64,000 nt of DNA from Thuidium tamariscinum. Its lineage: Eukaryota > Streptophyta > Bryopsida > Hypnales > Thuidiaceae. Made by a program: the position numbers and the translations under genes. This document shows positions 1 through 24,964 of the stretch, one piece after another. Position 1 is the stretch's first letter. Each line of letters opens with the position of its first letter. The stretch is taken from contig OX344749.2 in the NCBI GenBank assembly GCA_947034885.2, positions 36,158,682 through 36,222,681 of the forward strand, written 5' to 3'. A model generated the notes under the pieces. The model was not told the origin of the DNA. It saw only the letters and a program-made list of their open reading frames with translations, and made no database searches.

Positions 1-2467
1 AACATGTGACCGAGGAGTAGCTTGAAGGTGCAACAATTTTTGTAATATTTGACCACATTGTTAAAAAATTATTGTATGATAAAATTTTGTTTTTCATCAT
101 TTATATATACATGGAAAGCTTTTAATCATTCCATATTGATCAATGAGATGAAAGTTATCAAGAACTATAGTTTGTAGGTACTTTTGAAATCTCTACTCTG
201 AAAATTTTTTTTTTCTATTCAAACCTAGAGTTTATTCTTACAAAGATACCAAAAACAAATAGTAAAAAGCCAAGGGCATAACTCTAGAGACAAAAAACAA
301 TGAGCGACACACAAAAAATCAAACAACTTTAAATTGTACTCCCTTTGTTCCCAAATGATCTTCCTCTTGCACTTCGTGACATGCAAATTTGTTAAATTTG
401 GATTTCAATTGTTGTCTCAGGCTAGCAAAACAACTCTAAACAATTACCCCTCCCCTACATTCATGCATTCATCAATTAAAAAAAAATGAAATGACTAAAG
501 CAGTCAATCAACACTTTTCGTTTGTATTTTTTGCATCTCTTTTAGTGTTGCCCAACTGAAGGATATGAAGCTTTGGAAGGCGGCATAGAATTCTATACAT
601 GGTCTTATACCCGTATTAATTGCCTACAAAATGAAAACCTCAAACTCAAAATTTAAGTGCTCATTTGTATTCTTTGCAAATGCCTCCAAAATTCCACTTT
701 TCTATATTTTAAATTGCACTTTGAAAAGGGCCTTGAAACTTAAAGTTTCTAGGATGCAAAGAGTGCACCAAGCTTTGTTTAATATGCCAAAGAAGATTTT
801 TAAATGATATTTTTAGCCTTAAACTTGATTATTTTGTTGAATAGGAGATCATTTTGAAATGGAGGTAGTATGAAGGATTTACAAATGACTTTCTTGAAGT
901 TCCACATGATGACTCTAAAATAAATTTTGAAGCTCTTTAGTTAACTCAATTTTCAATATTTTGAAAAAAACCATAACTTTAGGGTGTAGATCTTTTATTA
1001 AATTACCACCATTGAAATTGGCATTTTTCAAATTGTATGACTACATTCTTAACAATTTAGTACTTTAAATCAATTTCTTCTTCTCTCTACTTACTATTTT
1101 TTGAAGCATGAATACAAAATTTTGTTTCTAAAATGTCATTGTTGCTTTTTTTAACATAGTAAAATTTATCAAATTTTGGAGGATATAATTTTAACTTCAA
1201 CCGGTGCTTGAGAGAATTTTTTCCCTATTGGTACAATAATCCTAAAACAAGTGAGAGTTGGCAACAAAAAAAACTCAAAAACTTGAAGAGTATTAGAACT
1301 TTAATTTCTTATATATAGACTATATTTTCTTCTATATGGAAAGACTTCATTCATACCATTTGAATAAGTAATGTGAAAGCTAGAAAGCTTCTTGTTTTGT
1401 GTTCAATCTTAACAAGTCCTTGGGAAAATAAATTGTACCAAATCCATTTTGGAATCAACTTTAACAATTAAAAAGAAAGTTATACATAGTTTAGTTTGTT
1501 TTCTATAACAATTCTACTATTTGAAGTAGCATATTTTGGTTCATCTTGAAGCTATCAACAATATAGGTTTTCCTTCTATTTCATATCTTCTTTGCTTTAG
1601 TAATTTATTGAAGAAAACAATCACAAGAAGGGTCCAAGGTAAATTTTTGTTTAAGCCATCAATTAGATTCTTGAATATTAAAGTGAATGGACAATCTATA
1701 GTACAAAAATTTGAAGTTAAGAAAAATCAAAGCTTCACAATCTAGTAAGGCTAGGAGCAAAAAAACTTGTTTTTTTACTATTTACACTTGTATCTTGTGA
1801 TCAATATAGTCAAAGTTTTTAAAATTTCTCCCGGAAATTTTTATACAAGTCTTGTGCAAGATTGTACAATTGGATATGCTATAGAATTTGGGATTAGAAG
1901 TTGGAGAGTTTTTTGAATTCCTAAATGGTGTAGGAACTAGAATCCAAAAGCTTCGTGTTATAAGTTTTGTTAAAAACAACAACAAATGAAATCATTATGA
2001 ATTTCAAAATCAAGTTTTATAGAAAAGAAACTCAAAATATCAAAATACATTACTAACATTGTTTATTATTTTGGGGGACAAACTACCCCATATTTCAATA
2101 GAGTGGATATAGTATCAATAAAGCAATATTCAATAAACTATATGCAGCTTGAGGTTAAGGACAAAGACTCATGGTTTGAAATAACTACATTGATTGATCA
2201 TATTGTAGAAGTATATATATATATACAAACTCAAGAAATTAGAAGCCTTAGAGACAGGGGTGCAAGAGCAAGCAAGAATAAAGGTATAATTTATTTTTGT
2301 CCAATCATGTACTTAAATGTCATGCTATCCAAAGTCCTACAAGCAACACAAAAAAATTTAAATAACGTGTGTAAAATTCCTATTCTACTTTTGAAATTTG
2401 TTATGTATATAATTAGCATAATGTAAGATGCAATTGTTCAAAAAATTCCATAGGTAGTATAAAAAGC
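1..2467. other. Gene-free AT-rich repeat DNA
   Basis: I see no gene. Positions 1-190 are a diverged copy of the dispersed repeat also found at 20.7-21.5 kb, with shared words such as GAGGAGTAGCTT and AATGAGATGAAAGTTAT. Positions 1,290-1,830 align in order with 39,160-39,700, sharing a word near TAGTACAAAA followed by AAGTTAAGAAAAATCAAAG. The short open frames here have no recognisable domain and the base composition of their surroundings. Confidence 0.6.
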
Positions 2468-2493
2468 TTAGTTGGGTGTAAGTATGCTAGACC
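2468..2493 (+). repeat. Left TSD (TTAG) plus left 22-bp terminal inverted repeat
   Basis: TTAG occupies 2,468-2,471 and the TIR 2,472-2,493. The core TGGGTGTAAGTA is identical to the right end in inverted orientation. After about 22 bp the similarity stops. Confidence 0.68.
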
Positions 2494-2664
2494 CCATACT
2501 TTTTTGAGTCACAAAGCCAATTTTCTAGAAAACTCGACTTTGCACTTGTGATTGTGATTACTTAGGGGTGTTTTTTTGCCAATTTTTTTTAATTTGCTAG
2601 ACTTGTTACATGTTAAGTTCATGTGCATGTTGTCCCTTTCTTGAATTACCAAGTTCAATGAGAG

Positions 2665-3075
2665 AAATTTGTACTTTTAGTATGCTCAGTAAATTGTCAC
2701 AGTACACTTTTTTGAAGGAAAGTACAAATATCTTAGAGGTGGGAAGTCAAAGTACTTCTTTTCTTCTTGCAATGAAGATAAGCAATGGCAGCGTATTCGA
2801 ATCTACCCTCACTTTTGTATTTACAGCTTTAGTTTGGCCGAAATCTTCAAAATAAGTCAGTTTTTGTTTGCAAGTTATATCTGGTGGAAAAATCCATCTT
2901 TTCCAATTAGATTGAAGATTCTAGATGTTGGCACCTAGTTCTAGAATGGCGTCTAGTGCATTAAAGAAAAAACAAAATTTTCCGTTAGTTATTTTTTGGC
3001 GCTTCTATACGTTGTTCAGATACCAAGAGTACTCTTAGTACACTTTTGTACTTTGATAGAAGGAACATTCCTTAA
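2665..3075. promoter_or_regulatory. Left subterminal GTAC-rich region, likely transposase promoter
   Basis: This stretch lies between the left TIR and the transposase gene. It contains repeated GTAC-centred words such as AGTACACTTTTTT, AAAGTACTTC and TTTTGTACTTTG. A GC-richer stretch at 3,105-3,340 with CGGCGGCGCC follows and leads into the first candidate start codon. A promoter or transposase-binding role is inferred from position and repetition only. Confidence 0.4.
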
Positions 3076-3337
3076 TTGCGCATCCTGACAAATTTGATTT
3101 GTCTTAGACGCCGGTTTGTTGTGGCGGCGCCATTGTTTTCTTCGGCCACGTCATCGTTGTCTCTCTCCTGAGTCTGGGCTGCATTTGCTGTGCACCTTCG
3201 GCTTGGTTTGTGATTCCCTATGCTGTTAGGTTGTATGGAATCAAAGTTTTCCTTGAATTTTTAGTGCTTTGAAACTTCTGTGCAATGGTCAATACTTGGT
3301 GATGTTTGCGCAAGCTGTTTGTCTTGGTTTGTGAAAG

Positions 3338-3704
3338 ATGGCGACGTCTACACAACGCCCAGCTGTCCTGGTTCAAAAACTTATTACCTCATATTTCACT
3401 GCAAGTCTTCCTATTGATTTGGGTTCTCGTTGTTTTGAGTCAATTAGTGCTTAGACTAGTGACTGGTTACATTTCAGAAACCCCAGTGTCCAAGCAAGGA
3501 AACATTAATTTCTATTTAGGCTTGTGCAACACACAGGACGAGTCCTCCAGGCGATCTCTATTCACTAGCTCAGATCCAACATCATATCCCACCACAAGTT
3601 CGGACTTCACACCTTCTTTTTCTTCCGTGAGACTTCCAACTGGGCCTTCAACTGTTAGCTGCGAATCCCTTTTGTTGAGGAAGTGACATCGGCTATTTAT
3701 GAGG
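3338..3704 (+). pseudogene. Candidate first exon of the transposase-like gene
   Basis: An ATG at 3,338 opens a frame starting MATSTQRPAVLVQKL. It runs to GAG-G at 3,704, followed by a GTGAGT donor. The frame reads like protein but is cut by four stops (TAG, TAA, TAG, TAG). The overlapping frame at 3,306-3,686 is open for 126 codons but is hydrophobic at its start and then low in complexity, so I prefer the ATG frame weakly. I could not find a splice into the next exon that keeps frame. The link to the gene downstream rests on proximity and strand. Confidence 0.3.
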
Positions 3705-4662
3705 GTGAGTTCTGTCAAATTCTCTTGAAACGATGCTCCTCAGACCTTCCTGCATGCAATGCTTACATTAGATCTTGTCATCTTCACAACTTCTGAACTA
3801 CATACTCTGGTTTATGGTAGATGACTAACGTGCGTGTGCCATTGATTGTCTGTTCTTTTGTTTAAGAATGGGTAACACTGCCAAGAGACAACGAGTACGA
3901 CATGGCATTAGTCGTCTAGGTCCAGCAGTTAGGGCCAATGTAGCTCGCTTGCAAGAAGAGCAACAGATTTTGGTAACTGAGAACGCAAGAGTAAGAAAGT
4001 CTTTGCAGAGGTCACAAGAAAGACAAAGGCAAAAAGAGGCACTTATTTTAGCTTCTGTAGCACTAGGTGTTTTGGAAGACAGTCTATCACCGAGAGACTC
4101 TAATCGAATCTCACTTCGTTTAGTGCAATATTTAGGGCAGGAGTTGAGAGGCTGTCCCGGTCCACAAAGTAGGAGAGATGTTGTGGAGAGGTTATTGCGC
4201 CACAATAGTCTTTCCCCTTTGCTGCCTGAGTACTATGCACGGCCGCAAGAAGCTAAGATCATTCACTCATTCATTGAGAGCTTCAAGAATGAATTGCAAT
4301 TAGTAAAGGTAGCAAACTCCAATGAGTTGTTAGCCATGAAGAGTGCTCTGTTGGATGCAGCAGTAAGCTTGGGAATTGATGGGGTGAGGCCATTGTCTTG
4401 TATTTTGGAAACATCAACAGAGAGTATCAATATTGCTTTGAATAGAAGGATTGAGCTCCTTGATTATGAGGAAACAGTTTTAGGGCTTCGCTTACATCGT
4501 AAGAAGAAAGGGGGACTCTCTGACTACGTCAAACAATGCATTCATGTATGGTGAAATGCCCAGACTAAGGTCTCTCCAAACAAAAAGGACGTGATCAAAC
4601 ACCGAGTAGACCGAAAGGATTGGACGGAGCCTCATCCGACGCATTATCTGTGTGATTCTCAA

Positions 4663-5334
4663 GTATGTTGGAATTTACAATTGAGGTGTTGTCTTTTTAC
4701 TTATGTTCTGGAGTCCAAATTCATGTTAGTCAAAGTAGTTTTGCTAGAATTTGCTTAGAAGAGAACAGAATGAGTTCTACAATAATTGGACCTCGTGTCC
4801 TACGAGTATTAAAAGTACATCAATAGCTCATGGCATGAGGAGTACTGTGCATGTTTAATACTGTTCATGTAGTGGTTAAGGTGTTAATATGTAGTCATGA
4901 GCACTTGGGGATCATGTTGTACAAAATGGAATTTTAGCTTGTACATATTCGACTTTAAACTCGAAGGATGACCCTGAACCTAGGTGTAGTAGGTACTCTT
5001 GTACTTTGTTTCTCTAGTTACATACCCTTTGTACATATGGCATTGTTAGTGGTCATACGAATCAAAGTACAAATGGTACTGGGATGGTTTTGTACTTTTC
5101 AATTTTCATAATAATCTACCACTGTTATGAACTTTATGTAATATAAAATGTACATATTGTATAATGTCTTCTTCGAAACCTGAAGGTGGTATTGCAGTGT
5201 GTAATACATGCATGACTCCTAGTACATTGTCATGGTACTTTTCTACAATTAGTACATTCTGTATATTTCTCACGTACAAGGTTTGCAAAAAAGGTTCTTA
5301 TTGTACATGTTTTACATGTCTTTGAGTTTTGCAG
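4663..5334 (+). other. GTAC-saturated intron of the transposase-like gene
   Basis: This intron starts GTATGT and ends TTTTGCAG. By eye it contains about 15-18 GTAC tetramers, several as paired words such as TGTACAAAATGG and AAAGTACAAATGGTACTGG. A random sequence of this AT content would carry about two. No coding sequence is seen. Confidence 0.6.
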
Positions 5335-7289
5335 ACCTCATTTTTTTTGCCCTTTAAGGAAGTCCACCCTGAATGTAGTGTGCGGCAAAGGGCATTTGAG
5401 AGGTTGAAGCCGTGGTGGGTGCGGAAACTAAAGGAGCGAAATACATGTTGTTGTATTTACCATGTTCAAACCGATTTCATGAAGATTGGATTGAGGAATC
5501 TAAGAGACAAGCTCAGAGGGCTGCATGTTAACTGTATTTGTGCTTGTATTATTTGCAAAGGCAATGAAGAGGGGGGTTGTTGTGCACATGAACACATTTT
5601 TGAGCGGATAACCTTACTGTGGAAAGCATGCGTGTGTCCGAAAGGGGAGTTTGATGTTTGGCACAAACTGGAATGCCTTATAGGAGAGTGTTCTAGTTGT
5701 GGTTTTCGTTTGCTTTTGTTTTGTCCTCTTGAATTATCTACTTCTAACACGTTTACCTTGAAGTGGAAGTGCTTTGAATACTACCAGGTGGGAGTGGATT
5801 CTCAGACCGGAAGAGCCAAAAAAAGAATTAGGGAGGCTTTCAAAGAGACACCTGCACACGAATTCCTGTCATACATGGAGAAAACCGTCACTACATTTGT
5901 CACGCACAACTTCAAGGCTCGATGGCAGAATGAGCAGTGCCAGCTGATGATGCAAAATGTGCCCGAGGGGGTTGTTGTATCCCACATTGACTATGCTGAA
6001 AATTACTCCTTTGCCATCTAAAATGAGGTGCAGAGCTTGTATTATCACAATACAAGTGTGACCATATTGGTTCACATTACGATGTGGAAAGAAGGAGACC
6101 AGACTATGAAGCAGACCTACTTTTATATTTCTAATGATAAATCCCACGACTCTGCTTTTGTTCAGCATTGCTTGATGTTGCATTGGGATTGGCTAACTGA
6201 CTCTAGATTCACTCCGGAGGAGTATTGGGTGTTCAGTGACGGCTGTAGTACATAGTTCAAGTGTGCAACAACTATGTATTTTGTGGCACGCTACCCTGGG
6301 CTCATTGGAGGTTGCAAGATGAATTGGAATTTCTTTGAATCCGCTCATGGAAAGGGAGAATGGGATGGGGCAGGTGCCGTGGTGAAAAGGGCATTGGCTG
6401 CTGAGCAGATTGAGAATCCCTTGAGGCCGTTACGGAATGCTGGTGATGTGGTGGATTTTCTGGATGAGAAATACACCGAACATGTACCCAGCTCATACAC
6501 ACGAGCTACAACTTCCCTTCTTTCTTGTGTTTTTTGGCTGATTGGAGATTCATATGTCGATCATGTTGATAATAGTATCAAATGCCAGACTCTGCCAGGC
6601 TCCAAAAGTCTTTATTCCATTTCAGGCTTTTCTATAACTAACCCTACCCTCCTTAGGACTCGTGAATTGTCATGCTTTTGTATCCCATGTATTGATGGTG
6701 ATTGGACTGAGTGTGAAAAGTCAGCACATGTGCAGGAATGGCGGGTTCAAAGGTTGCAGCCTTTCAATACTGCTGCTGTAGCTCAACAAGTCGAAAAGAT
6801 GGACAATGAAGCAAACTGGGCGTATAATGGTATTTCGGAAGAGGTTGGTGACTTGGTAGAAATTGGCGACAACTTCATGATACCTGCAGAGGAGGATAAC
6901 GAAGATGGGGTGGAATACTACATCCTCCAATGTGTGGCCAAGAAGTTTGTGTTACAAGAGTCCATAATATGTCCATGGGGGGGATTTTTGGGAGCTGGAG
7001 ACGCTGTGATTTGAGCACAATACTTCAAGAAGTACGGGCGTGGAGAGAAGACCTATGTGCTTTGTGATAGGACATTTGATGCTCATGTAGAGGCTCATCT
7101 AGTTCGGGCTTGCAAATTCCCTATGGTTCTAGCTTCTCATAGGGTGAAAGGAACTCCTGTATACAAGGTGTCTAGTGAAACACAACGGATATGTGAAGAT
7201 GCCTTACGGGAGTGGTGGGCATCAATGGTGATTAACTATGTTGCATTGTAGCATTGATCATTCAAGGAGGTCCTTAGGGCTGTGGGAAC

Positions 7290-7450
7290 TCAAAGCATAT
7301 TTAGAAGTATTAGTAGATACTTTGAGTACTATGAGAGCTTCAAGCCAGGTATGCCTTACAAGTACTCTATGTGCTACATGTACCATATGTACAAGATGCA
7401 CTATATGTACTATATGTTCTGTATATTATATGTATTGTATGAACTAATAA
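7290..7450. repeat. GTAC/TGTAC-rich 3' end of transposase gene
   Basis: The stretch is dense in TGTAC and CTATATGTACTATATG-like words just downstream of the last large transposase exon. The short open frames here arise from this simple composition. Confidence 0.4.
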
Positions 7451-7984
7451 ATAGTTGTGAGTTTTTAAACTCACTTTTAAGTGTAATATTTCTTATCTGA
7501 AGTTGTGTTATAGGTGAGAAATGAGATGTTTATTTACTAGTTGCCCTCTGATTTGGATATACCTATAGTTAATCACAAACTCATCTTAACCTACATTGAT
7601 TCGTGGTTTGGGTATTGAAGCTATGGTACATGGAAGAGCACCAGAAGCTTTTTTCCACTAATTGTATGGCTCCAAATATAAATCTCAGAGTTTTTACAAC
7701 TTTTAATTTTAAGAAAATAATCCAATGATATACTAATGAAGCACTTAACGATTGGATTAATGAGCATATTTAATATGCTTATTAATCATATTCCTACTAA
7801 TTGCACAAAAGAATGGAGAATGAATTTAGTTAAAGTGAATATATTAGATATTAAAAAAAGGACCTTTGCACTAGTACAACACCAAATATAGGAAACGAAT
7901 ACCAAAGACACCTATAAGAAACTCAAAAAGGAAAAAAAGGTGAAGGGCACAAATGCTAGTGACAACAAATTGAAACATTCAAAA

Positions 7985-8400
7985 GGGAAAAAAGTAGGGA
8001 GCTAATGAATGCCAACATCTAAGAAAACATTTACTAGACTGTTTTCTTTTTCTTTAGGTGATGAAAAAAATTGGGTGATGATGGTATGCACCCATCACTA
8101 TATAAGAAAAAATTCGAAAGAAATAAAAAATGGGAAGGTAATGAATGCCAAAACCTAAGAAAATATTCATGAGAATGTTCTCTTAAGTGATGAAAAAAAT
8201 TGGGTGATGGTATGCACCCATTACCTATATAAGAAAATTTTTGAAAGAAAAAAATGGGAAGGTAATGAATGTCAACCCCTAAGAAAACATTCACAAGAAT
8301 GTTTTCTTAGGTGGTGAAAAAAATTGGGTGATGATGGAATGCACACATCACCTAAATATGAAAACATTCAAAAAATAAATAAATAAATAGGAAGGTATGG
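7985..8400. repeat. Tandem repeat, ~125-bp unit, about three copies
   Basis: A unit containing GATGAAAAAAATTGGGTGATG, TATGCACCCAT, a TATAAGAAAA word and AAAATGGGAAGGTAATGAATG recurs near 8,058, 8,187 and 8,311, with spacings of 129 and 124 bp. The third unit is truncated. Nothing suggests coding. It sits in the spacer between the two convergent genes of the large element. Confidence 0.7.
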
Positions 8401-9250
8401 ATTGTAGACCCTATAATGAGGATTAGAAGAAATAAAGATTAATGGTGTCATCAGATTTTTTGTATAGATCATGGGAGTTGGGATGCTAAGTAGTCCCACA
8501 CTAGCTTTGCCATAATTTGTTTGCATTCCTTACTCTAGAAAGATGATCACATGTTGGGCTTGAATTTATAGAGGCAAAATAATTGACCAAGAATATACAA
8601 AGAGTTGTTTTAGAATGAATGTTTGAATGAATGTTCATCTCTAAAGGGGACATTCTTGAAGAACAAGTGGAAAGCTAAATGGTCAATCGATACAATGACA
8701 ATGACCTTTCTTTCAAAGAATGTAACTTTTGCATTCAAGAACCTTGTCTGATTACATTTACACATAAATTGAATGTAATCTTGTGCACTGTGGAACGGGG
8801 TAATGACAATATGGCCGTGGCTTTAATATTTGCACGCACAATGGACAAAACATCCTCTACAATTCACTCTAAAGTAGCAAAACTGGGAGCTAGAACTTTG
8901 TTATTGCATGACTTACTCCTCTTGTTCCATGTACAAAATTGGTCCATATACTTCAACGAACAAGAGTGTTTTACACATGAAAGAGGCTGATGAGAACATT
9001 GGTAGTCCGCAAGTGACCAGTTAAATTAGAAATCACTATTAATTCACACTAAACAAGATTGCAATAGTGATTCCTTAAAATATCAAAAAACAATACATTT
9101 TTACATAGAGTACACTTTCTATATATAGTACACACTTTGTACATATAGTAGATATTACATTTTTATATATAGTACATGTACATGGAGTACATGGAGTACA
9201 AATATCACTAAAACACTCCTACCTCTAAAAGCCTCATTGCAAAGTCCTAA
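8400..9250. other. Intergenic spacer between convergent transposon genes
   Basis: The stretch at 9,095-9,220 is GTAC-rich, with several AGTACAC, TGTACAT and GGAGTACA words, and lies just beyond the stop of the SET gene. A 103-codon frame at 8,679-8,990 on + has no recognisable domain and no gene-like context. I do not call it a gene. Confidence 0.45.
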
Positions 9251-10541
9251 TTCATTTGGTCCTACGTGGTTTAGATGGGTCTGCGAGAAATTTTCGATGT
9301 GCAGTAGCCAACAACTTGGCTACAGTCATTGAAGTGTCACCCACCTCGTCTTTGGGCAAGTTAGTGTTACACAACTTTTTCTTGCATAAGACACTGTTGC
9401 ACCTACAAGCAAAAGAAGATTGTGATGTTTCAGAGTCATTAAACGTTGTGCCATAATCCCACATCAACTCTTCTCCAACTTCAACTCTTCGATTCGTAAA
9501 GAAGGCAATATGATAGAAACGGCGGTCGATACTTCCAATTGAGACAGGCATGTCTACTAGATTCGGATCTCCACATCTGTAATGTCCAATTGCAAGGGTC
9601 AATGCATCAAAGGTATTGAACATTGAGAAACAATTTAAAGGCAAACGTTGCCCAACTCTATCGCGAGGTTCAAGAATGTAGACACATTGTTAAATTTTGA
9701 AGAGACCAAGTCTATGACCCCTAAACCACAGTTGTAATTAAAGCCATAACACCCAATAAAAAATGGACAGTCTTCCCAAAGAAGTAATTTAAAGCGAAAG
9801 AAATTAACAAAAAATGAATTGTAAATTGTACCTGTGGTTCAAAAATCTGGCCACGTTTCCAAAGCAAGTGGAATCCAAGTTCAAAGCACTATTGTCGTCC
9901 ACAATGTGCTCAGTAGCCCAGTCAACATCAAGAGCCATACTATAGGAGAGTAAGCCCTTTGCCCGCTTATTTCTATCAATAAGTTCAGCAGTAGTCAAAA
10001 TCTCACCCGTCAACTCAAAAACGAATGCACCTCTAGGTATATGCTCAGCTGCTCGAATCCCCCATCCCGTGAGGGCTTTATGAAAGACCTCTACTTGAAA
10101 CTTCATCCCCTACTGAACAACACGATTGCGACAGTCACTGCCACATGCACACTTCACATTGCACTCCTTAAGGAAAGTACGAGGAACATGACCCTTGCAC
10201 TGATCTCCACCCCTCATACATGGGGTCCCTTTCTTACAAAAATGAGGAGTACCATCGTCACCTCCCTCGATTAACTGATTTGCTAGAATGCCTCCGGGAT
10301 ATGCACCTCCACCTCCAACATGTGCTTGGCATGGACAACTACCATCCATGCAGCTGTTGGAACATTGACAGTAGTCCCCATGGTGCAGGCTCTTCGAGGT
10401 GGGAAATATCTGCGCTTGATCATAAATTAGACTACAATTCATATACTGAAAATAAGGCAAAGGCACGTCAGAGTTAGCAACTTTGATAGGAGTCCCTTCC
10501 ATCCCCTTAGACAAATCTTCAGGATCATACCAAATCTCTTC

Positions 10542-10909
10542 CTGGTTATTACCCCATCCCACAAACCAAAGTACCCACGTTATACTTCAAAAAGACAAGT
10601 AAATTGAAGTCTTAGCCAATGCTTTGGAGTACCAACTGTACTAGTTCAATTAAATCACGAACTTTGCATACATTAAAAAACCACAAGTCACTCAATAGTC
10701 TCACAAGAATTTGGAGTGACAATTTTGAATGAGGGAGGGCCCTTACAAATCTTCTCTAATAGATATAGAATATAGCTGCATACTAAGAGCTGACCAACGC
10801 AGTTCAATGGACCAAATACAAAAATAAATACAAAGCAAAAATAGACTATGCGGTTGAACTGTTTTGCAGTGGCATCTCTCCCTCGTTTCAGCGAGGAAGG
10901 GCCACCTAC
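10542..10909 (-). other. Intron between linker and SET exons
   Basis: The donor GAGAAG|GTAGGT and the acceptor AATAACCAG|GAAGAG are both in phase 0, which ties the SET exons to the upstream linker exon in one gene. A methionine at 10,562 lies in the intron and opens the same frame. A shorter SET-only protein is therefore possible if the intron is retained. Confidence 0.5.
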
Positions 10910-12225
10910 CTTCTCACCCCTTCTCTTTTTTCCTTTAGCCTTGTTAACTGCTGCTGCATCCACCTCTTTAGCAACACGTGCTCTGGTCCGAACACTGCTC
11001 TCCGGAGCAACAACTGCACTATCACTAACACCAACAGCAAGCTGGGGTAAGTCTTTAAAAGTTCTCTTATCCACAGAGTACAGATTCTCAGGGGCGGACA
11101 TATTTTCCACCTCCTCATCATCCGACAATGTTAGACCTCTCAGCCTCTTGGCCTTCACCTTGAATGGCGACCTTGCTGGATGGGGAACAACCGCAATTTC
11201 TTCCATCTGCATGGCCACACCTTCTGCTTGCACAGCCACAACTCCCGCCTCTAATGCCACTGCTGTGCTCTCCACCACCTTTGACTTTGGAGACGTTGGA
11301 ACCAGGGCCTTACCTGTAGTTGCTTCAGCTTGTACTTCTGTTGTTCCATCGTACACACCCTTTACCCCAGCCTCCAACTCTTATAGCATAGGATCCGCAC
11401 CCCTCTCACAACCCTCCACCACTTTGGCCACATCCTGTACCACGTGGTTATCCTCCAAACCTTTTGCAGTACCCTCCATGTCGGCGACATTGCTCCCAAC
11501 ATCCATCTCTCTTCCTCGTTGCCCCACCAAGCATTGTGAATCCGGTTTGGGTACCACCGGGCTTGCAACTTTGGGCTCCGACGTCTTCTCAGGCACCAGT
11601 CCCTCTTCTGTCACAGAAAGACCTGAATTTAGCCGAGGACGCAACTTAACATAAAACATAACGCCAGCAGGGTCGCTATCCTCAGAAGTCAACCCAAATT
11701 CTGAGGACTTGGCCACCTCACCTTGTGCGACTTCTGGTATCGGACCCTCCTGGCCTTGCCTCTCTAAGTTCTTGGGACCCAAATCTACCGATTTGATGAT
11801 GTCCCCACTCCCTTGTGCGGCAATTTCCGGCTCACCGTCTCCTTCTTCCTTGGTAGATGAAAGGCTGGTGCCTGAGGATGAACACAAAGCAGGCACCGTG
11901 GTGTCTACTTCGTCATCTGATGAAGATGAGTCTGAATCTAGAAGAGTTTCAGAGGCGTGGCCACTCTTACCATCATCTAAGCACTCCATGACACACACCT
12001 CAGTTGAGCGTTGCGGCTCCTCTTGTTCAAGAAACTGAGGACTGCTCTACTTCCGGATCTCAGCAGGTCCTTCCCCTAAACCGTCAACATCCCTTTCCGA
12101 GCAGGTCCTTTGACTTGTCTCTCCCTCGGCTAGACAAAGTGGTTCAGTATACACTGATGCATGAGGGACAAATTCTAAAGAGAAGTCTGTCATAACGCTC
12201 AAAAGATTAGTGACTGGCGTAGCAT

Positions 12226-12840
12226 CTTACAGAAAGGAGAAGTACATAATGTACCCCTGATACAAAAAGCCTCATTACAAAAAGTACAAAAACACAAATG
12301 AAGGGAGAAATGGTTGTACTAAGAATACAAATGTACAAAGAACACAATGGATTAAGCAAAAAGAATGTACAAAAAATCCAAATGTACTCCTCAAATAAGT
12401 ATTCCATGAACCCAAATGTACTTAGGATACTAGGTATTAAAATATCAATGTACTAAATATACTAGCTAACTGATAATACAAAATGCACAACTAGTACAAA
12501 CAGTTCTATAGGATGTCTTTCGAATGGAGCTCATAGTTCAATAGTACTAGGTTGGGGTACCCAGAAGTATTGTATGTACTCAGATACCAATTGTTCAGTA
12601 CTACTTTGTTCATAGTACCTTAGAAATGAAGCGCAAAAAAAAGAGAAATACCTGTTGTAGGTCCTCCTAGTACATTCTTGTCCGTGGACCCTGTTGTCAG
12701 TACCATTCCAATGTCAAGAGATAAGTACAAAAATAGACAATTTGAGGAAGCAAGTACTTGAAGACACCCTCATATACAATAAGCACATGAGCATACAATT
12801 CAAATTACAAGAGACAACATGAATTCAAATGTGAACTTAC
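12226..12840 (-). other. GTAC-saturated intron of the RING/SET gene
   Basis: The donor ATTG|GTAAGT and the acceptor TTCTGTAAG|AT join in phase 1 (codon G|AT). About 17 GTAC tetramers lie in this 615-bp interval, for example AATGTACTTAGG and CAGTACTACTTTG. This is the same anomaly as in the transposase intron. Confidence 0.5.
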
Positions 12841-13716
12841 CAATTGTCGGTACCCTTGATCTAGCTCGGTCTGTTCTTTCCCTCATTAGTCTCCTTCTTT
12901 CTTCAGGCAGCCCAAGCATTGATTCTCTCTGTGATAGCTCTGCATTTGGCTCTCCCCACCCAAAGCTTCGATACCACTCCGGATGTGACAATTCTTGGCA
13001 ACCCTCTGCCACGCACTTGCAATGTCTAGCAAAAACTACTGAAGCACAAAAAGAATGATACAAATGCTTACATGAGGAGACTACAATGTCATTCTGAGGA
13101 AATGAGAATGAACACAAGCTGCACCCTGTAATTCTAATGAATTTGCTCTCACACCCAAAATCACATGATGGTGAAGGAGGATCTTGGGCTGAGTACACCA
13201 TGGGCCTTGGGAACAAGTTCAAATTACTCCTCCCTGCCTTCAACTGGAATTTCTCTGCTGCTAGGGCATCGAATTGCAATTGACTACTTTCCAAACCTCT
13301 TGTCATTGACGCCATGGCAACTTCAGCTTCGTCCACCTCCTGTCTTGCAGCGTTCACCTTCAAAGACTCCTCCTGCATTTGCTCTTGAATTCCTTCCATC
13401 TTTATCATTTCCTTGAAAGCATCTTTGCCTTCCTCCTCCAGTGTCTTGATGAGTGCCTTCTTCTATAGCTCTTACTTCTATAACGACCCCATTCCCCATT
13501 CAGATTGCTTGAGATTCAAGTGGGCTCCTTCAAGCCGTTGTCCTGCCTCTTTCTTCAATCCCCGAAGGTGTTGCTGCTCGAAGCGGATCACTTCCATCAA
13601 TTGGTGAACGTCCATCAAGCGCTCCTCAGCAACAGACTTCTTCAAAGTCACCCTTGCGACCCCCCCAACAGCAACGTCTGGCGCGCAAATCCCTGAAGCC
13701 ATTCCGGATTCAAATC

Positions 13717-14607
13717 CTACACCATCACACTCAGCCATCGATAGAAGACGCGATTTAGAAGCTCTTCCCTTCTCTCTACGGCATCGACTAGGGCTCGCTT
13801 CTTGTCGCTACCCTCCTTCTCCCCTTCCATCTTCACCTGTACACCAGGCTCCACCTTGAATCCGCGCCACTCCTTCCTGCGGACTGGGGCTCGCTTTCCA
13901 TCTGTGGTACTGGACACCACTGCTTTCTTCAATTCGTCCAATTTGTTCCGATCCAGCGTGTGACGGCTGCGTTGGCGTTTGTTAGTCTCTTCACCAAACG
14001 CGCACCAGTTCACCTTGCCACTCCCTTCTTCGTACTCTCGAACCACCCCTTCGGCAAAGCGAATCATGACCAAAGTCGGGGTTTTGTCCTCGGGATGCTA
14101 GTAGAGGATCGGGTGCAAAAATTTCACCCTATCCACTACCTCTTCTACACTACATCCACCCCAAGCATACCCGGCCTGCCCACCCTCACCATACGGATTC
14201 CCAAAGAGCTTCCTCAAAGACTCGGCACTTACCGTATTCTTGCGGAAGTGATGCGGGTTGTCTCCCTCGTTGGCGAGTCCATACTCCGTCTCAAAATCAC
14301 GCTTCTTGAGCAATTGGGGTGGTTTCTTCAACCTCGCGATTTCCTCCTCAACATCTTCAGCAGAAGTGAAGACTTTCAGCGACCTTAGCTGCTTCTCTTT
14401 CCCCTTGATCTTCGCAACAACTCTGGATGCACCCTCGAGAACTTGGACGTCTTCTTCATCGCCACTCGCCAAACCCGATCTCGTGGCACCTGACCCTACA
14501 TCGGCAGACTTGGACCGCTTGGTTTCAGACTTCACCGTCACCTCCTCGTCCTCTAAACCTTTCTCTCTAACGTGCACACGCCCCATTGTGTCCCTCGCAC
14601 CACTCAC
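13717..14607 (-). pseudogene. Upstream ORF or N-terminal part of the RING/SET gene
   Basis: The frame starts MSGARDTMGRVHV at 14,607 and runs to 13,717, with a single stop (TAG, 14,098-14,100) followed at once by more protein-like sequence (HPEDKTPTLVMIRFAEG). The product is lysine/glutamate-rich and includes GYAWGGCSVEEVVDRV and KVNWCAFGEETNKRQRSR. I do not recognise the family. It lies in a different frame from the next exon and overlaps MAECDGVGF (13,738) by 22 nt. It could be a separate gene, or the true N-terminus of the SET protein separated by a one-base shift. Its promoter would lie near the minisatellite at 14.64-14.81 kb. Confidence 0.4.
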
Positions 14608-14639
14608 ACCGTAGGAACTTTCTCAAAAAAAAACCTAAC

Positions 14640-14815
14640 TCCCGATCGCCCAACTCACCAATGGAAAGCTCGCCAATTGCCCAGCTCGACGATCGCCCAA
14701 CTCGCCAATGGAGAGTTTGCCAATCGTCCAGCTTGCCGATCGCCCAACTTGCCGATCGCCACCTCGCCAATCACCACCACGCCGATCACCACCTCGCCAA
14801 ATTTCGAAGGTGAGG
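14640..14815. repeat. Short GC-rich repeat (CGATCGCCCAACTCGCCAATGG-like words)
   Basis: Units built from GATCGCCCAACTCGCCAA recur about six to eight times with drift, immediately upstream of the 14,607 start codon. Several frames stay open through it on both strands because the unit lacks stops. These are not genes. It may overlap the promoter of the minus-strand gene. Confidence 0.55.
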
Positions 14816-15189
14816 GAAGATGGCTTTGGCGCCAGCCTCCTGAGAGAGACGAAGGTGACCGGGGGTCACCAGTCACCTCCCCTAGGCAGCTCAAGAAGTA
14901 ACTGGTGACCACCAGTCGCCTTAACCTACTAAGCCGGTTTTGGGCTTAGGTGTGACGCAGATGAATTGTGAATTTTTATTTAAATCATATAACCTACCAA
15001 CTTTATCTACAAAATGAACTAATGTTTTATTTCTAAAATTGAAAACATATTAAATAATGGGAAGCATTTGATTAAAAAAAATCGATGAAAAAAATAAGAA
15101 GCATTTGATTACACAAAATAGAAAACAATTGATATTAAAAATAAGAAGCATAATTTGATTACCCATTTGAATAGGAAGCAATTGATAAA

Positions 15190-16945
15190 AAAAATTGGGA
15201 AGTGGATTTGAGGATCCTATTATCAATTTCTACACTCTAAATGAAAATAGAAACATTTAGTGTTCAAACTAACAAAAAGGGGGAGTAGATTAGTGGTACC
15301 CACCATTAGTTTTCACATGCTATTTTAAAATGAACAATAGAAACTCTTTGTATTCAAATTTAAAAAATGGGAAGTAGATTTGTGGAACCTAGAATATCAT
15401 TTTGATACTCTAAAATGAAAAATGGAAACTCTAAGACTTATTCAATAAAAAAAATTGGGGAATAGATTTGTGGAACCCACAATCAATTTTCACACATTGA
15501 ATGAAAAATAGAAACTCTTAGACTTATTCAATAAAAAAAATAGGGAATAGATTTGTGGAATCCACAATCAATTTTCACACATTGAATGGAAAATGGAAAC
15601 TCTTAGACTTATTCAATAAAAAAAATGGGGAATAGATTTGTGGAACCCACAATCAATTTTCACATATTGAATGGAAAATGGAAACTCTTAGACTTATTCA
15701 ATAAAAAAAATGGGGAATAGATAATTTGTGGAACCCAGAATATCATTTTGATACTCTAAAATGAAAAATGGAAACTCTTAGACTTGTTCAATAAAAAAAA
15801 TGGGGAATAGATAATTTGTGGAACCTAGAATATCATTTTGATACTCTAAAATGGAAAATGGAAACTCTTAGACTTGTTCAATAAAAAAAATTGGGGAATA
15901 GATTTGTGGAACCTAGAATATCACTTTGATACTCTAAATGAAAAATAGAAACTCTTAGTATTCAAATAAAAGAAATGGGGAGTAGATTTGTAGAACCTAG
16001 AGTATCACTTTATTACTCTAAATGAAAAATAGAAACTCTCAGTATTCAAATTAGAAAATGGGAAGTGGATTTATGGAATCTAGAGTATCATTTTGATACT
16101 CTAAAATGAAAAATGGAAACTATGAGTATTCAAATTTTAAAAAATGGGATATAGATTTGTAGAACCTAGAGTATCATTTTGATACTCTAAATGAAAATAC
16201 TCCTAGACTTATTCAATAGAGATACTTGGAAGTGCATATGTGGAACCTAGAGTATATTTTTGATACTCTAAATGAAAAAAAGAATTATTTAGTTTTCAAA
16301 TTTAAAAAATGGAAAGTAGATTTGTTGTACTCACAATCAATTTTCACACATTGAATAGAAAATAGAAACATTGAGTTTTCAAATTAAAAAAATGGTAAGT
16401 ACATTTGTGGAACCCACAATCAATTTTCACACACTAAATGAAAAATGGAAACTCTGAGTATTCAAATTTTAAAAAATGGGATATAGATTTGTAGAACCTA
16501 GAGTATCATTTTGATACACTAAAATGAAAAATTGGAACTCTTAGTATTCAAATTTTAAAAAATGGAATGTAGATTTGTGGAACTTAGAGTAGCATTTTAA
16601 TATACTGAAATGAAAAATAGGAACCCTTAGTATTCAAATAAAAGAAATGGGGAGTAGATTTGTGGAACTTGGAAGTGGATTTGTGGAACCTAGAGTATCA
16701 CTTTATTACTCTAAATGAAAAATAGAAACCCTTAGTATTCAAATTAGAAAATGGGAAGTGGATTTGTGGAACCTAGAGTATCACTTTATTATTCTAAATG
16801 AAAAATAGAAACTCTTAGTATTCAAATAATTAAATGGGAAGTAGATTTGTGGAACCTAGAGTATCACTTTGATACTCTAAATAAAAAATAGAATCTCTTA
16901 GTATTCAAATAAAAAAATGGGAAGTGGATTTGTAGAATCCTTATC
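15190..16945. repeat. Minisatellite, ~83-90-bp unit, about 20 copies, with internal hairpin
   Basis: The unit reads roughly GAAACTCTTAGTATTCAAAT, an A-run, ATGGGGAGTAGATTTGTGGA, ACCTAGAGTATCATTTTGATACTCTAAATGAAAAAT. Many copies carry a perfect inverted repeat TAGAGTATCA-TTT-TGATACTCTA. A variant subtype instead has ACCCACAATCAATTTTCACACATTGAATG, and subtypes occur in runs (15,470-15,720 versus 15,720-15,960). That pattern suggests expansion by local duplication. It lies in the right arm of the large transposon. Confidence 0.85.
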
Positions 16946-17432
16946 ATCTCTAATCCTAAATCAAAATGAGTACGTTGAATCCATTTTTAATTCTAGTTTC
17001 CACATGTTTGAACTAAAATGATAGGATTTCAATTTAAGTCCTACATGTATAATTGTAATAATGATATGAATGGCTATTATAATCCACATGCTCTATTTTT
17101 TTGAAATTTTTGGTGAATTCATTTATAAAATGTTGCAAGTTTGAAAACTTTATCTCTACATATTCTAATAGCTTAGAAATTTCATCTAAAAATTTTAATC
17201 AGTAATTAATCCTTTAGCAAATTAACAAATAACATGGGCAAATTTAAGATCAGCCCTTGGATGCTCATCAAGGCCATACGATTTTGGCCTTTGGATGCTT
17301 CAAGATCCAACTAGCGGGAAGGTTGAGGTGGGCTAATTCAAATCCAGCCCTTGGATTGCCCATTGGGAATCAAATTCATTCTAGGCCCTCCGATTTTCCA
17401 TGAACAATCTTAAAAATTGGCCCTGACGGACA
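16946..17432. other. Gene-free right arm of large transposon
   Basis: No open frame or repeat stands out. A locally repeated word, CAGCCCTTGGAT, occurs near 17,253 and 17,347. Confidence 0.4.
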
Positions 17433-17448
17433 CAATCAAGTCGGTATT

Positions 17449-17627
17449 TTTTTTTTAAACACATGGACAATTTCCATTGCATAAAGGAAATAGTACACAG
17501 CAACCAAAGGCAAGAGCCTCGGCGAAGCATCATTTTAGTTTTTCTCTTTTTTTTAAGGTAAGCCTAACCAGATCACCCACCTTAGGTCACGACCCCAGAC
17601 AGCACAGTGCGTCAGCATTAGCCACCT
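17449..17627 (-). mobile_element. tRNA-like SINE with 16-bp target duplication
   Basis: Direct repeats CAATCARGTCGGTATT flank the element at 17,433-17,448 and 17,628-17,643, with one mismatch. On the minus strand the element starts with an A-box-like TGGCTAATGCTGACG and a B-box-like GGTCGTGACC, and ends in an A-run beside the duplication. These are the hallmarks of a tRNA-derived SINE moved by target-primed reverse transcription. It inserted into the right arm of the large transposon and is therefore younger. Confidence 0.7.
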
Positions 17628-17882
17628 CAATCAGGTCGGTATTGAATGGCATGGCTTTTAAAAGACTGTGTGGCAGTTTAACAACATGAATTATCCTTTA
17701 CACAACTAGCACATTCAATTAAGTTTGCTTAGGATTCAGAATCATCTCGCACTTTGCTCCCGAACAAATGTATCTCTGACATCAAAAATCAACGGCCTAG
17801 ATCTACTTTGCTGAAGTACATTACGTACTAATTTGTACTTTGAATACAGAACAGTACAGGGAGATTTTGCCTAAACTGCTTA

Positions 17883-17908
17883 GGTATAGCGTACTTACAC
17901 CCAGTTAG
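17883..17908 (-). repeat. Right terminal inverted repeat plus TSD (TTAG)
   Basis: Read on the minus strand, 17,904-17,883 begins CTGGGTGTAAGTACGC. It mismatches the left TIR at three positions. TTAG follows at 17,905-17,908. GTAC words just inside (17,810-17,895) match the composition just inside the left end. Confidence 0.68.
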
Positions 17909-18060
17909 GAGGCAAAGTCAAATGACTTTGTTGAACAAGGTGTGTGTATATATATTAAATTTTTTAAATTTTAAATTTATTTATTTATTTTTAAATTTAA
18001 AAAAATCAAATGCTATAATTTCTCAATTATTGATGTTATCAAAAATTCTTAACTCCTAAA

Positions 18061-18125
18061 GGTTTTGGACTAAGGTAGGAGGTTCTTAAATTGCACAGGC
18101 ATTAAAAATCACCCTTATAAATGCT
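18061..18125 (+). repeat. Terminal fragment of AAGGTAGG-TIR MITE
   Basis: CTAAGGTAGGAGGTTCTTAA matches the left end of the element at 41,060. Only the first ~60 bp is recognisable. Confidence 0.4.
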
Positions 18126-18638
18126 ATGAAATGGAGATGAAATGGTTTTTAAATTGACCTTTAGAATCATTGAATGAATCAAGGAAAAAAAACATTATTA
18201 ATTGCAAGAGTCAATCATTCTCTTTGTTTTCTCCATCTTTTTAAAAAGTTGCAAGTGAATGGTTTACGGAAGACCTAGGGTCACAAAAAGGGGCCTATGA
18301 CACAATTCATTTGGAAATTCATAACTAATTCAATAATTCTTCAAAAAATATGAAAATACTTGTGTTAGATTCCTCATCTATTTCTCTTAGATTGAGAAAT
18401 GAGCTAAAAATATTTTCATCTAATTCAATATATGAAAAAGGCAAATTAACCCTTAGATGAATGGTTTCTAAGCATCATAGCTTATGTTTTCACCAAAAAT
18501 GCTCCAAAACTATTATTTCCAGTACAAGTATCAACTTCTAGAAGAAAAAAACAACATTTTTGGACACATTTAACCATTGGGCCTTGTAATGAACTAGTTT
18601 GGGAAGATGTAGAAAAAACTTCAAAGGAGTAGAGATTT

Positions 18639-18854
18639 CACGGTTGCTAGTGTGTGAGCACTAAAAGTGTAAGCCTATGAGCCTAAAATTCTATACACCT
18701 ATAGGATAGATGTCCATATCATAGACACCTCAATGGTTATAGTCTATTCATGTTATAAACACCTTCAATGAGTGTAGGATACTTACTTATACTTAGGCTT
18801 AAGGCTCATAGGCTCATAGGCTCACACTTCTATGCTCACATACTAGCATCGTTG
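18639..18854 (+). mobile_element. Mutator-like MITE, 216 bp, 10-bp TSD
   Basis: Ends of about 40 bp are inverted (GCTAGTGTGTGAGC ... GTAAGCCTATGAGCC against GGCTCATAGGCTCACAC ... CTAGC). The element is flanked by perfect direct repeats GTAGAGATTT at 18,629-18,638 and 18,855-18,864. Long TIRs with a 9-10-bp duplication are typical of Mutator-type elements. It encodes no protein. Related copies lie at 23,813 and 42,855. Confidence 0.75.
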
Positions 18855-18879
18855 GTAGAGATTTTAGGATTATCGGCAA

Positions 18880-19230
18880 ACTATATCAAACTAAAACTCC
18901 TCATAACTTTTGGCTCATTGATAAAAAAAAATTAAAAAAATATAATAATTCAGCCTTCCACTTAGATACAAATCTGAAAATAATTTAATTTAATTTAATT
19001 CTTAAGAAAAAGATTTCATAAAGTTCTTTTAATTTTGTTGCATGAGTTTTTCACGAAGTAATGAAAATTCCATATCATACAAAAATCTTTTAACTATGTT
19101 GTCAAAAGTTATGAAAATTATTGGGCCATAAAGGTACTCCTCAATAAAATGTTGTGTAAAAAAATAGAAATAAAAAATCTATTGGTAGTGAGTTGCCCAA
19201 AATTACTATGTTGCCAAAAATTAGAGTTTA
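18880..19230 (-). repeat. Dispersed repeat R1, inverted copy
   Basis: Its reverse complement follows the order of the copies at 20,720-21,076 and 21,089-21,470: TTGGCAACATAG, CAACTCACTA, AAGGAGTAGCTTT/GGCCCAA, CATAACTTTTGA, then the GAAAGTTAT tail. No protein-coding potential is seen. Confidence 0.6.
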
Positions 19231-19677
19231 GTGCTTTAGGGGTTAATTTTTTTCCCACTTGTTCTTATAGTAGTGTATTATCAATTTGTACAATTGAATC
19301 TAATTATCCAAAATAAATAAATTCTCAATACCCCCATAAGTCGCAATTTTTGACAATTTGTGCCTAAAATGTGCCATAGTCCTTAAGAAATAAATTTGCA
19401 AAGTTGTGAGACATTTACTTTTTCTAGAATTTTATTAAAAGATCTATTATTTATATCATGGTTGTATAGCCAAACAAATTGACAACTTGACAAACACGTC
19501 AAAATCGACAAGAATTTTATCCCTTGTTTGTTTAATAGAACCAAACTTGTCTTTGACTTTTGAATAAAAAATTTGGCCTACCCACTGGCCACGTGGCTTC
19601 CATGTGGCACAATATGGGGTGCATGTGGGTAGGGTGACTGCAGATAGGGCATCTAAAAGTAAGGATCATAAATTAAC

Positions 19678-19816
19678 TTCTTTTGCAATTTTTCATTGCA
19701 ATTTTTAGAATCTTGGGGTGTGTAATATACCATTAAAAAGGTATTGAAATCATCTTTCCAAATATACATTACACGCTCAATAATTCCCAAAATTGCAATG
19801 AAAAATTGCAAAAGAA
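19678..19816. mobile_element. Short foldback MITE, ~140 bp, 28-bp perfect arms
   Basis: The arm TTCTTTTGCAATTTTTCATT... at 19,678-19,705 is repeated in perfect inversion at 19,789-19,816. I could not define a target duplication. Confidence 0.6.
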
Positions 19817-19853
19817 GAACTCCTACTTACAATTAGGTTCAAGGCTCATAGAC

Positions 19854-20700
19854 TCATGTGCTATCATCATTGAGTCTTTGTTCAAGTCCATTAATATATT
19901 CATGTGAAAGAGTCATAAACTCATAAAGTGGGTCACACAATTTTTCATGAGGCATACTTAAATTGTGGTCCAGGGTAGTTGACAAATCATTCAGCCATGA
20001 AAGACAAGCCACCTGACTGGTGCTCAAAAGAAGGGAAAAAATTAATCCTTTTTGTGATGTAAGAATACACACATCATTCCATGACTTGCTTGTGAAGGAT
20101 GCTGAGTTGCCACCGTATCTGTGGTACTATCCTCATTCATTTGATCATTCACAGCAAGGCCATGACTGACAATGAAAGCTGCCCTAACATCCAATAACTT
20201 ATTGTAAAAGGATGGACCAACAAAAGAAGAAAAAAAAATTAGTCCAAGATGACAAGCTCTAAAAAACCCAAACTTTGTGCCAACATTAGAACTCTTTATT
20301 GTGAGTGGTTGGGTTTTATTTTCAACTAAGTACTTATGTAACTATTGCTTAATTGCCGATTGGTTGTGACTCTTAATTATGATTTATTTTCTTATAGTGT
20401 ACGCATTCTGAATAATTATGTGAATCGAGGGTATGTTGTTCACCTTGGATATACCTATAATTGAAACTTTGGTTATATTCTTATATAGTGTGCATTAATA
20501 TATTCCCAAAAAATTTAGGATCTTCTCATATTGTCAAATTATGCCTTGAAATTATTAAGATGATTTAATGATAGGAGTTACTTTGTATTTTTAAATGCTT
20601 ATTTGGACACTATTTTACTAGGTCTTTTACCAGATTGTATTTGAAAACGTTTCAAAATCTAAGATCGTGCACAATATGAGATTATAAGAGCATGGCCACT
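19854..20700. other. Gene-free stretch with degraded MITE end
   Basis: At 19,826-19,870 the words GGCTCATAGACTCATG and TATCATCATTG echo the right end of the Mutator-like MITE at 18,639. The rest shows no gene, repeat or motif I can support. Confidence 0.4.
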
Positions 20701-20719: not shown

Positions 20720-21470
20720 GCATTAACCCCTAAAGCCCTAGCTGCGTTTTTTGGCAACATAGCGATTTCAGGCAACTCACTACAAATGGAGTTATATTTT
20801 TTTTCTTTGAAATTTTGACACAACATGTATCCAAGGAGTAGCTTTAAGGCCCAAAAATTTTCATAACTTTTGATTACACAGTTAAGAAGTTATGGCATGA
20901 TATGTTGTTTTATTTGAACGTTGGGCAACTGAAGAAACTTCTTTAAAAAAACTTTTTTTTCAAAAGTGAAATTTCAAATTTTATTATTCTTTAAGTTTTT
21001 ACAGACATGGGAAGCTTTGAATCATTCCATTCGGATAAAAGAGTCGAAAGTTATTTTAGTTTGCGGGTAGGTATGGTTTTGAAAGACTCCATACCTACCC
21101 GCAAACTAAAATTCCCCACAACATAGCTACATTTTTTGGCATCATAGGAATTTTGGGCAATTCACTATAGATGGAGTTTTTATTTATTTTTCTTTAAAAT
21201 TTTCACACAATCTATGCCCGAGGAATAGCTTTAAGGTTCAACAATTTTCATAATTTTTCACTACATGGTTAAAAGTTTATTGCATAATACATAATTTTCA
21301 TTCAATGGCAAGCACTCTAGGCAACTCAAAAAACTCCTAAAAAAATCACTCTAAAAAAAATAAAAATTTCAACTTGATTCTTTAGATTTATATATACGTA
21401 GGAAGATTTTAATCATTCCTTTTTTATTAATGAGATGAAAGTTATGAGGAGTTTTAGTTTCTAGGTAGCA
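20720..21470 (+). repeat. Two dispersed R1 repeats in direct tandem joined by a hairpin
   Basis: Copy one (20,720-21,076) and copy two (21,089-21,470) share the same word order: TTTTTTGGCA-CATAG, CAACTCACTA, ATGGAGTT, GAATAGCTTTAAGG, TTTTCATAA, GATGAAAGTTAT. The junction is a perfect 23-bp inverted repeat at 21,054-21,076 and 21,089-21,111 with a 12-base loop. Confidence 0.7.
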
Positions 21471-24042: not shown

Positions 24043-24964
24043 CTTGGAAACTAGTACAATAATTTATTTGTAAGAATCAAATTAAACTTAACTCCAATTC
24101 ATTTTATAAATTAGATATGAATTTTTTGGGTCACTATACCTATGCTATATTCTCCAAATCTACTCCCAAACTATGTTAAGCCTTTGAGAATTACTTTAAT
24201 TACTAACTCAAATGCATTTATTTTGTAGTATACACTAATCATTAACTTTACAAAATGTACAAAAATTTGAAAAAAAATCTAGGTTTCCTCAAGGTTCAAT
24301 CTTTATCAACAATTTCAATATATAGATATACTTTTCACGTCTTGTTTTCCCCAAAACCATTTATATATTATTTTATCTATTTGTATAAAATAATTTAAAT
24401 TGGAATGTATATGAATAGGTATCATTACAAAACAATATGGCTTTGTAATAACAACAATTTTTAAGAGCACACAAGAATGTTATGTGCAAAGAACTAATTG
24501 AAAACAATTCTCATTTGGTATGAATGAGACCAAACTTCCATAAGATGCTTAGAAATTCACTAGAAAAAAAAGCCTACCTCAGGCATACAACATCAAAAAT
24601 TTAGTTATGATGATAAGTCAACAGGAATTGCACAATTATCTTCAGACACTACTTTTATGTGACATTCATTCATTTGGAAATATTGTTACAACATAATATT
24701 TATATTCATTAATATCATGTAGTTTAAGCATGTCATTGATATTTGAGTTTGAAGTGCTATAGTTGCACAATAACTATGTGTGACAAATGTATGATTTCAA
24801 TGGTTTAGTGATATAACCATTGACTTTGTGCAACATTATTGCTTATTTAAGACATATAAAGTTACTAAAATAATCACACAACATCATCTTTATGCATGGT
24901 TATTGTATTAACAATGTATTTTTTATCTTTCACAATTTCAATATTGAGTCAATTGAAAAGGAAG

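Follow-up and report, generated by a model that had tools for sequence, protein, structure and literature searches.

A decayed 15.4-kb DNA transposon in Thuidium tamariscinum with a transposase gene and a predicted SUVR-type SET gene

Methylation of histone H3 at lysine 9 (H3K9) is a main route of transposon silencing in plants. A transposon that itself carries a gene for a putative H3K9 methyltransferase raises the question whether such an enzyme restrains or frees the element's own copies. We describe a candidate case at a locus of Thuidium tamariscinum (contig OX344749.2, positions 36,158,682 to 36,222,681), a stretch of 64,000 nucleotides that we refer to as the window, in which positions 2472-17904 constitute one DNA transposon of 15.4 kb. 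The explanation we consider likely is that the locus holds the degraded remnant of a cut-and-paste plant transposon of a kind that formerly moved autonomously, and that its SET-fusion gene most probably encodes an element-borne regulator of chromatin. It is built on what was observed at the locus and among its relatives, namely the ends of the element, its two genes, the core fold of its transposase, the equally long contigs on which relatives of its modules lie, a bias towards the word GTAC and the decay of the copy.

Ends of the element and its transposase

The element is bounded by terminal inverted repeats (TIRs) of 22 bp, at 2472-2493 (plus strand) and 17883-17904 (minus strand), which align without gaps and are identical at 19 of 22 positions; their termini read TTGGGTG and CACCCAG, and the right one contains one GTAC. 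Directly outside them stands an exact 4-bp target-site duplication, TTAG, at 2468-2471 and 17905-17908, and the bases adjoining it differ between the two sides (in this one copy of the element). An earlier note on this DNA had described both the 22-bp ends with 19 matches and the TTAG duplication, and both were borne out. We searched the flanks (1800-3829 against 14600-20000) for pairs with at least 19 of 22 matching TIR positions and an exact 4-bp duplication, and found the element's own pair to be the sole one, while dinucleotide shuffles of the flanks yielded a pair of equal grade in none of 200 cases. The same rule applied to the whole window yielded 12 pairs in AT-rich DNA and is not unique to the element; nine of the other 11 lie inside long inverted-repeat pairs and two (60362/62441 and 60373/62430) do not. 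The ends are therefore convincing only jointly with the content between them. These counts bear on the possibility that a host SET gene and an old transposase gene next to it are bracketed by chance between two unrelated inverted sequences and a TTAG. The 12 pairs of equal grade, in host DNA rich in inverted repeats, would fit such a coincidence, but the outcome of the shuffles, the position of the pair just outside both genes and the module pairs found on equally long contigs elsewhere (see below) speak against it, and we hold it to be very improbable.

The plus-strand gene begins with a probable exon encoding the N-terminal part (3868-4662, with limits deduced from the open reading frame and splice-like sites), which has one in-frame stop and whose product gave no significant match to the long transposase homologues (best E 0.31). 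A probable GTAC-rich intron follows (4663-5334; 16 GTAC in 4555-5325), and then the catalytic exon (5335-7251), with three premature stops. In its read-through product, P0001, residues D222, D305 and D347 are kept in >90% of 30 aligned rows, and in the predicted structure they lie at the RNase H positions of an integrase-type core; on this model, the gene is a DDD transposase. The core was clear only in a second look with VIA-align, which supports the fold and names no family. A PDB sequence search with the transposase returned nothing at E<=1, and neither Pfam nor NCBIfam gave a transposase family for the window gene or the homologues scanned, the two matches of the NCBIfam scan being far under the cut-off and neither of them meaningful. 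None of the relatives proposed for the transposase alignment among genome contigs, or for the alignments of all three modules (transposase, N-terminal part and SET) among viral contigs, was confirmed by tblastn. The transposase did have a liverwort match in Riccia sorocarpa (P0026), which, like the Remorin_C piece described below, agrees with a land-plant origin of the DNA. Three distant relatives of 21-28% identity (P0027, P0028 and P0030), one of them with N-terminal C2H2 fingers, suggest that the transposase family may reach beyond plants.

The minus-strand gene, its relatives and its decay

The convergent side of the element opens with an N-terminal exon at 12839-14586 (minus strand, as are all parts that follow), encoding a long coiled coil and a RING-H2-like finger behind a conserved first domain, and interrupted by four premature stops and a frame break at ~13.72-13.74 kb. 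It is followed by a probable intron, perhaps holding a small exon (12201-12838), where GTAC density is highest (19 GTAC in 12061-12839), by one or more probable low-complexity linker exons leading from the RING-like part to SET (10859-12200, with deduced limits and without a family match), by an exon for Pre-SET and the first half of SET (9832-10586, one premature stop), by an intron right after the NHR motif of SET (9577-9831, limits likewise deduced), and by the last SET exon (9252-9576), which carries the second half of SET and the post-SET cysteines. Pfam searches of the minus-strand pieces 10586-9252 gave Pre-SET at E 4.6e-10 and SET at E 6.8e-10, the last SET piece falling under the cut-off (E 0.0021), and Pfam, PDB matches and alignment together identified Pre-SET and SET with their catalytic motifs. 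Judged by its sequence, this part belongs to the SUV39/SUVR type, and H3K9 methyltransferase activity is predicted for it.

The N-terminal exon has 13 homologues, which share the conserved first domain, and a RING-H2-like Cys/His pattern (C-x2-C ... C-x-H-x2-H-x2-C) is conserved in homologues. The coiled coil is well modelled at ~401-480 of P0051, in a model of the N-terminal protein that is overall too poor for a structure search (mean pLDDT, the predicted local distance difference test score, of 49.7). The exon closes with a splice-donor-like site and is oriented towards the SET exons, from which we infer that the minus-strand side is probably a single gene, joining a coiled coil and a RING-like finger to a SUVR-type Pre-SET/SET.

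Among 2622 candidates, 16 passed as SET homologues, of which 15 resemble the window protein; the exception, P0046, is a conventional SUVR protein that contains a WIYLD domain. P0046 is 42% identical to the window protein and the others 43-69%, and the element's motif NRVVQQGM reads NRVVQRGI in P0046. In the SET tree (midpoint root; three of 14 inner branches well supported) P0046 forms a very long branch of its own, a placement that describes the relationship and is no proof of a single origin. Most of the homologues (13/16) stop just past the NHR motif, where the window gene has an intron. No WIYLD domain was found in the window pieces at E<=1 (in a scan that excluded 10587-11380) or in three SET homologues. 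The gene might be a mere passenger, a host SUVR gene picked up by chance and useless to the transposon, given that its SET part retains an intron and resembles a host SUVR such as P0046 and that this copy has decayed. Yet almost all SET homologues are like the element's and not like the WIYLD-bearing P0046, and they keep the catalytic motifs at identities as low as 43%; a useless gene is not expected to persist across such distances. Two pairs of transposase and SET relatives on equally long contigs likewise disfavour a passenger, which we regard as improbable.

These pairs emerged when the contigs of the relatives were compared. All three modules (transposase, N-terminal RING-like and SET) have relatives in other samples, and three pairs of relatives lie on equally long contigs, each pair within one source: transposase P0003 with SET P0040 (both 5267 bp), transposase P0018 with SET P0045 (both 213937 bp) and N-terminal/RING-like P0051 with SET P0033 (both 8592 bp). 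When all 58 contig sizes were jittered, coincidences numbered ~0.05 on average, and for both jitter widths used a set of 5000 runs yielded no case of three or more; within each module list no two contig sizes are equal. In the window, the stretch that reaches from the catalytic exon through the Pre-SET exon measures ~5.3 kb, close to the 5267-bp contig of P0003 and P0040. Three matching pairs against so low an expectation argue that the SET gene is a conserved gene of the element and not a chance neighbour, and elements of this sort probably form a family equipped with a chromatin-marking enzyme.

The copy in the window is itself dead: because of the stops and one frame break in its genes, it can no longer act. 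Eight premature stops were compared with homologues: at six of the sites glutamine is the commonest homologous residue, and at the other two the second-commonest is glutamine (5/13) or arginine (5/20 letters). Glutamine at stop sites fits the C-to-T loss at methylated sites of a long-silenced copy. Additional stops, outside the eight, lie in exon 1 and in the linker, and homologues include open reading frames free of these stops. The transposase-like gene and the convergent SUVR-type SET gene that had been read inside the element are present, though both are broken here, and the idea of an element with such cargo held up; the suggestion that it could be tuning chromatin cannot, given the stops and the frame break, apply to this copy today.

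GTAC words and a proposed role in chromatin

The word GTAC occurs at 89 sites inside the element (5.8/kb) and at 109 sites outside it (2.2/kb). With coding and noncoding parts divided by our own assignment and 15.0-17.0 kb excluded, its density was 9.7/kb in noncoding and 3.0/kb in coding-like DNA of the element. Over 6696 noncoding element positions against 48548 positions outside, GTAC was the most enriched tetramer (65 against 109 sites, ratio 4.3, z 10.2, from one copy); among hexamers the strongest enrichment was that of AGTACA, with 21 sites against 15 outside. The density peaks in the two long introns, at 20.8/kb in 4555-5325 and 24.4/kb in 12061-12839. The claim of the earlier note that GTAC is enriched inside the element was confirmed, but not that the enrichment stops at the ends, as it is uneven and makes no sharp mark there. 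GTAC is also the core of the sites of SBP-box transcription factors, and the words could be host sites unrelated to the element's proteins; but a C before or a G after the core was present in only 4/69 noncoding sites, against 16/109 outside, and A or T flanks dominate. This origin of the words seems improbable to us.

The right part of the element contains a minisatellite of ~83-90-bp AT-rich units (15185-16970), which is low in GTAC and has no other copy in the window, and which may thus be a later insertion or expansion. Between the convergent genes, at 7973-8411, a unit of ~127 bp that contains an inverted repeat is present three times in diverged form.

In the favoured explanation, the DDD transposase would act at the TIRs and leave the 4-bp duplication, and the minus-strand gene would belong to the element and encode a protein in which coiled-coil and RING-like parts precede a SUVR-type SET domain. 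Words centred on GTAC, which are dense in the element's introns and ends, would be bound by the N-terminal part of this protein (or by the transposase), while its SET domain would methylate H3K9 on the element's own copies. The effect would lean to repression, with the element restraining itself or limiting its copy number and thereby sparing the host, although it could have the opposite sign, with H3K9 methylation shifted to a state that escapes silencing. The one-gene structure, the catalytic activity, its H3K9 specificity, the DNA targeting and the direction of the effect are what we infer in this scheme.

Several findings weigh against it. For the transposase, plain Foldseek searches gave weak matches both to PDB (best match NurA, E 6.9e-4, probability 0.21) and to viral models, and its model is less sure near the active site (pLDDT 68 at 221-230 and <50 at 231-241). 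The RING-like finger has its best Pfam match at E 0.0012, with 19.5 bits against a cut-off of 27.3, and lies outside the modelled part of the N-terminal protein. GTAC is absent from the noncoding blocks 9601-9803 and 14587-15180 and reaches 2.2/kb in the minisatellite block 15181-16970; these three, out of nine noncoding blocks, do not rise above background, and the coding-like parts are near it. Finally, the partnership of the modules is deduced from equal contig sizes: the genes of P0018 and P0045 could lie far apart on their large 213937-bp contig, and P0003 falls in the window's transposase clade while P0040 falls in another, supported SET clade, a mismatch that would mean either a pair matched by chance or cargo exchanged between lineages.

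The main rival to self-restraint is anti-silencing, whereby the SET protein would counter the host, for example by converting the K9 mark that the host reads to a different state or by blocking host enzymes on the GTAC arrays. The noncoding word enrichment is like that of the VANC system, in which VANC21 is described as binding a word in noncoding parts of VANDAL21 (PMC5735166), and for SUVR4 a conversion of H3K9me1 to me2/me3 has been described in vitro (PMC7218100). However, SUV39-type enzymes generally lay down silencing marks, and no VANC-like protein was identified; we consider anti-silencing unlikely, if less so than a passenger gene. As a writer counterpart of the VANC system, a widespread lineage of plant DNA transposons may encode a sequence-guided histone methyltransferase, a single protein that would read GTAC arrays in the element's introns and ends and would write or rewrite H3K9 methylation there, the element thus setting its chromatin state in place of the host; we advance this proposal tentatively and hold it to be less likely than not. 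Were the favoured explanation true, SET-carrying transposons would be known from plants as well as from oomycetes, and with a further type of transposase; elements could join in, or bend, their own silencing; and a natural H3K9 writer, possibly guided by sequence, would become available for study.

Known systems and the surrounding DNA

PIF/Harbinger elements make a 3-bp duplication, TTA or TAA. TTAG includes TTA, and while the 4-bp reading leaves the TIRs ungapped, a 3-bp reading needs a gap; a PIF/Harbinger transposase was set aside, as no Pfam DDE family, that of Harbinger included, was found in two window pieces at E<=1 or in six homologues at E<=0.5. The duplication of Kolobok is TTAA, and TTAG rules it out. 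CACTA/EnSpm elements (ends CACTA/CACTG, 3-bp duplication; PMC10741241) were ruled out by the ends TTGGGTG/CACCCAG and by TTAG, and MuDR/VANDAL elements (duplication of 7-12 bp; PMC10741241) by the 4-bp duplication, beyond which the next bases differ. In ground plan the element is closest to Sola, a likeness drawn from descriptions of that superfamily. Sola, present in the moss Physcomitrella, is described as having a DDD transposase, a 4-bp duplication and TIRs of at least 11 bp, with some elements >15 kb (PMC10741241); our element has these features in common with it and differs in its SET cargo, of which the Sola description consulted makes no mention.

SET genes in DNA transposons have been reported before from Phytophthora, in HarbingerS and MuDR elements (Kojima and Jurka 2014, as cited in PMC12730594), so that the idea is not wholly new and what is added here is a plant variant. 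Compared by description in the citing text, those elements have oomycete hosts and other transposases, whereas here the host is a plant, the transposase has no Pfam match and a SUVR-type SET is joined to coiled-coil and RING-like parts. Among the open-licence literature matches listed there was no SET-carrying plant transposon, only the oomycete cases and SETMAR, and the literature searched gave no pertinent account of JmjC capture by CACTA. SETMAR, as summarized in PMC8994322, likewise has a SET domain adjoining a transposase, but there a mariner transposase has been joined to a host gene of primates, the opposite course to the present case, in which a separate gene lies inside the element. 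Many fungal transposons of several superfamilies are reported to carry TET/JBP genes (PMC12730594), also an epigenetic enzyme captured by a transposon, though in fungi and with an enzyme acting on DNA methylation.

With VANDAL/VANC the element shares a short word enriched in its own noncoding DNA, introns included (PMC5735166, PMC10398659), the word bound by VANC21 being described from VANDAL21 introns as well as from its intergenic and terminal noncoding DNA (PMC5735166). An element protein acting on its own chromatin would be a further likeness, here as a proposal by analogy. By those descriptions VANC proteins are not SET proteins and take silent marks away, the VANDALs belong to MuDR, and the words differ. 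The Pre-SET/SET sequence and layout are those of plant SUVR1/2/4, with P0046 as the example, but no WIYLD was found in the element, which has RING-like and coiled-coil parts upstream; SUVR4, a plant member of the family that has been studied, is described as binding ubiquitin via its WIYLD domain and as converting H3K9me1 to me2/me3 (PMC7218100).

As for the surrounding DNA, Rfam gave no matches in the window at gathering cut-offs. A dispersed AT-rich repeat flanks the element in both orientations (1-180, 18888-19247 and 20722-21467), and an apparent inverted repeat that would enclose the element, formed by 1-81 and 19073-19153, was rejected as part of this repeat, with more copies at 20.7-21.5 kb. 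Self-complementary stretches that resemble foldback elements or miniature inverted-repeat transposable elements lie at 19677-19817, 24948-25366, 40506-40838 and 56388-56749, and the foldback stretches at 29.5, 40.5-40.9 and 56.4-56.7 kb are related to one another. Diverged host repeats form pairs of 77-79% identity (43650-44178/30432-30967 and 45071-45388/41060-41386). Remorins are plant proteins, and a Remorin_C piece at 52100-53200 (~53 kb), which at E 3.6e-6 scores 27.2 bits and so falls slightly short of the cut-off of 29.7, within a GC-richer stretch at 46-56 kb, is probably the host gene of the window.

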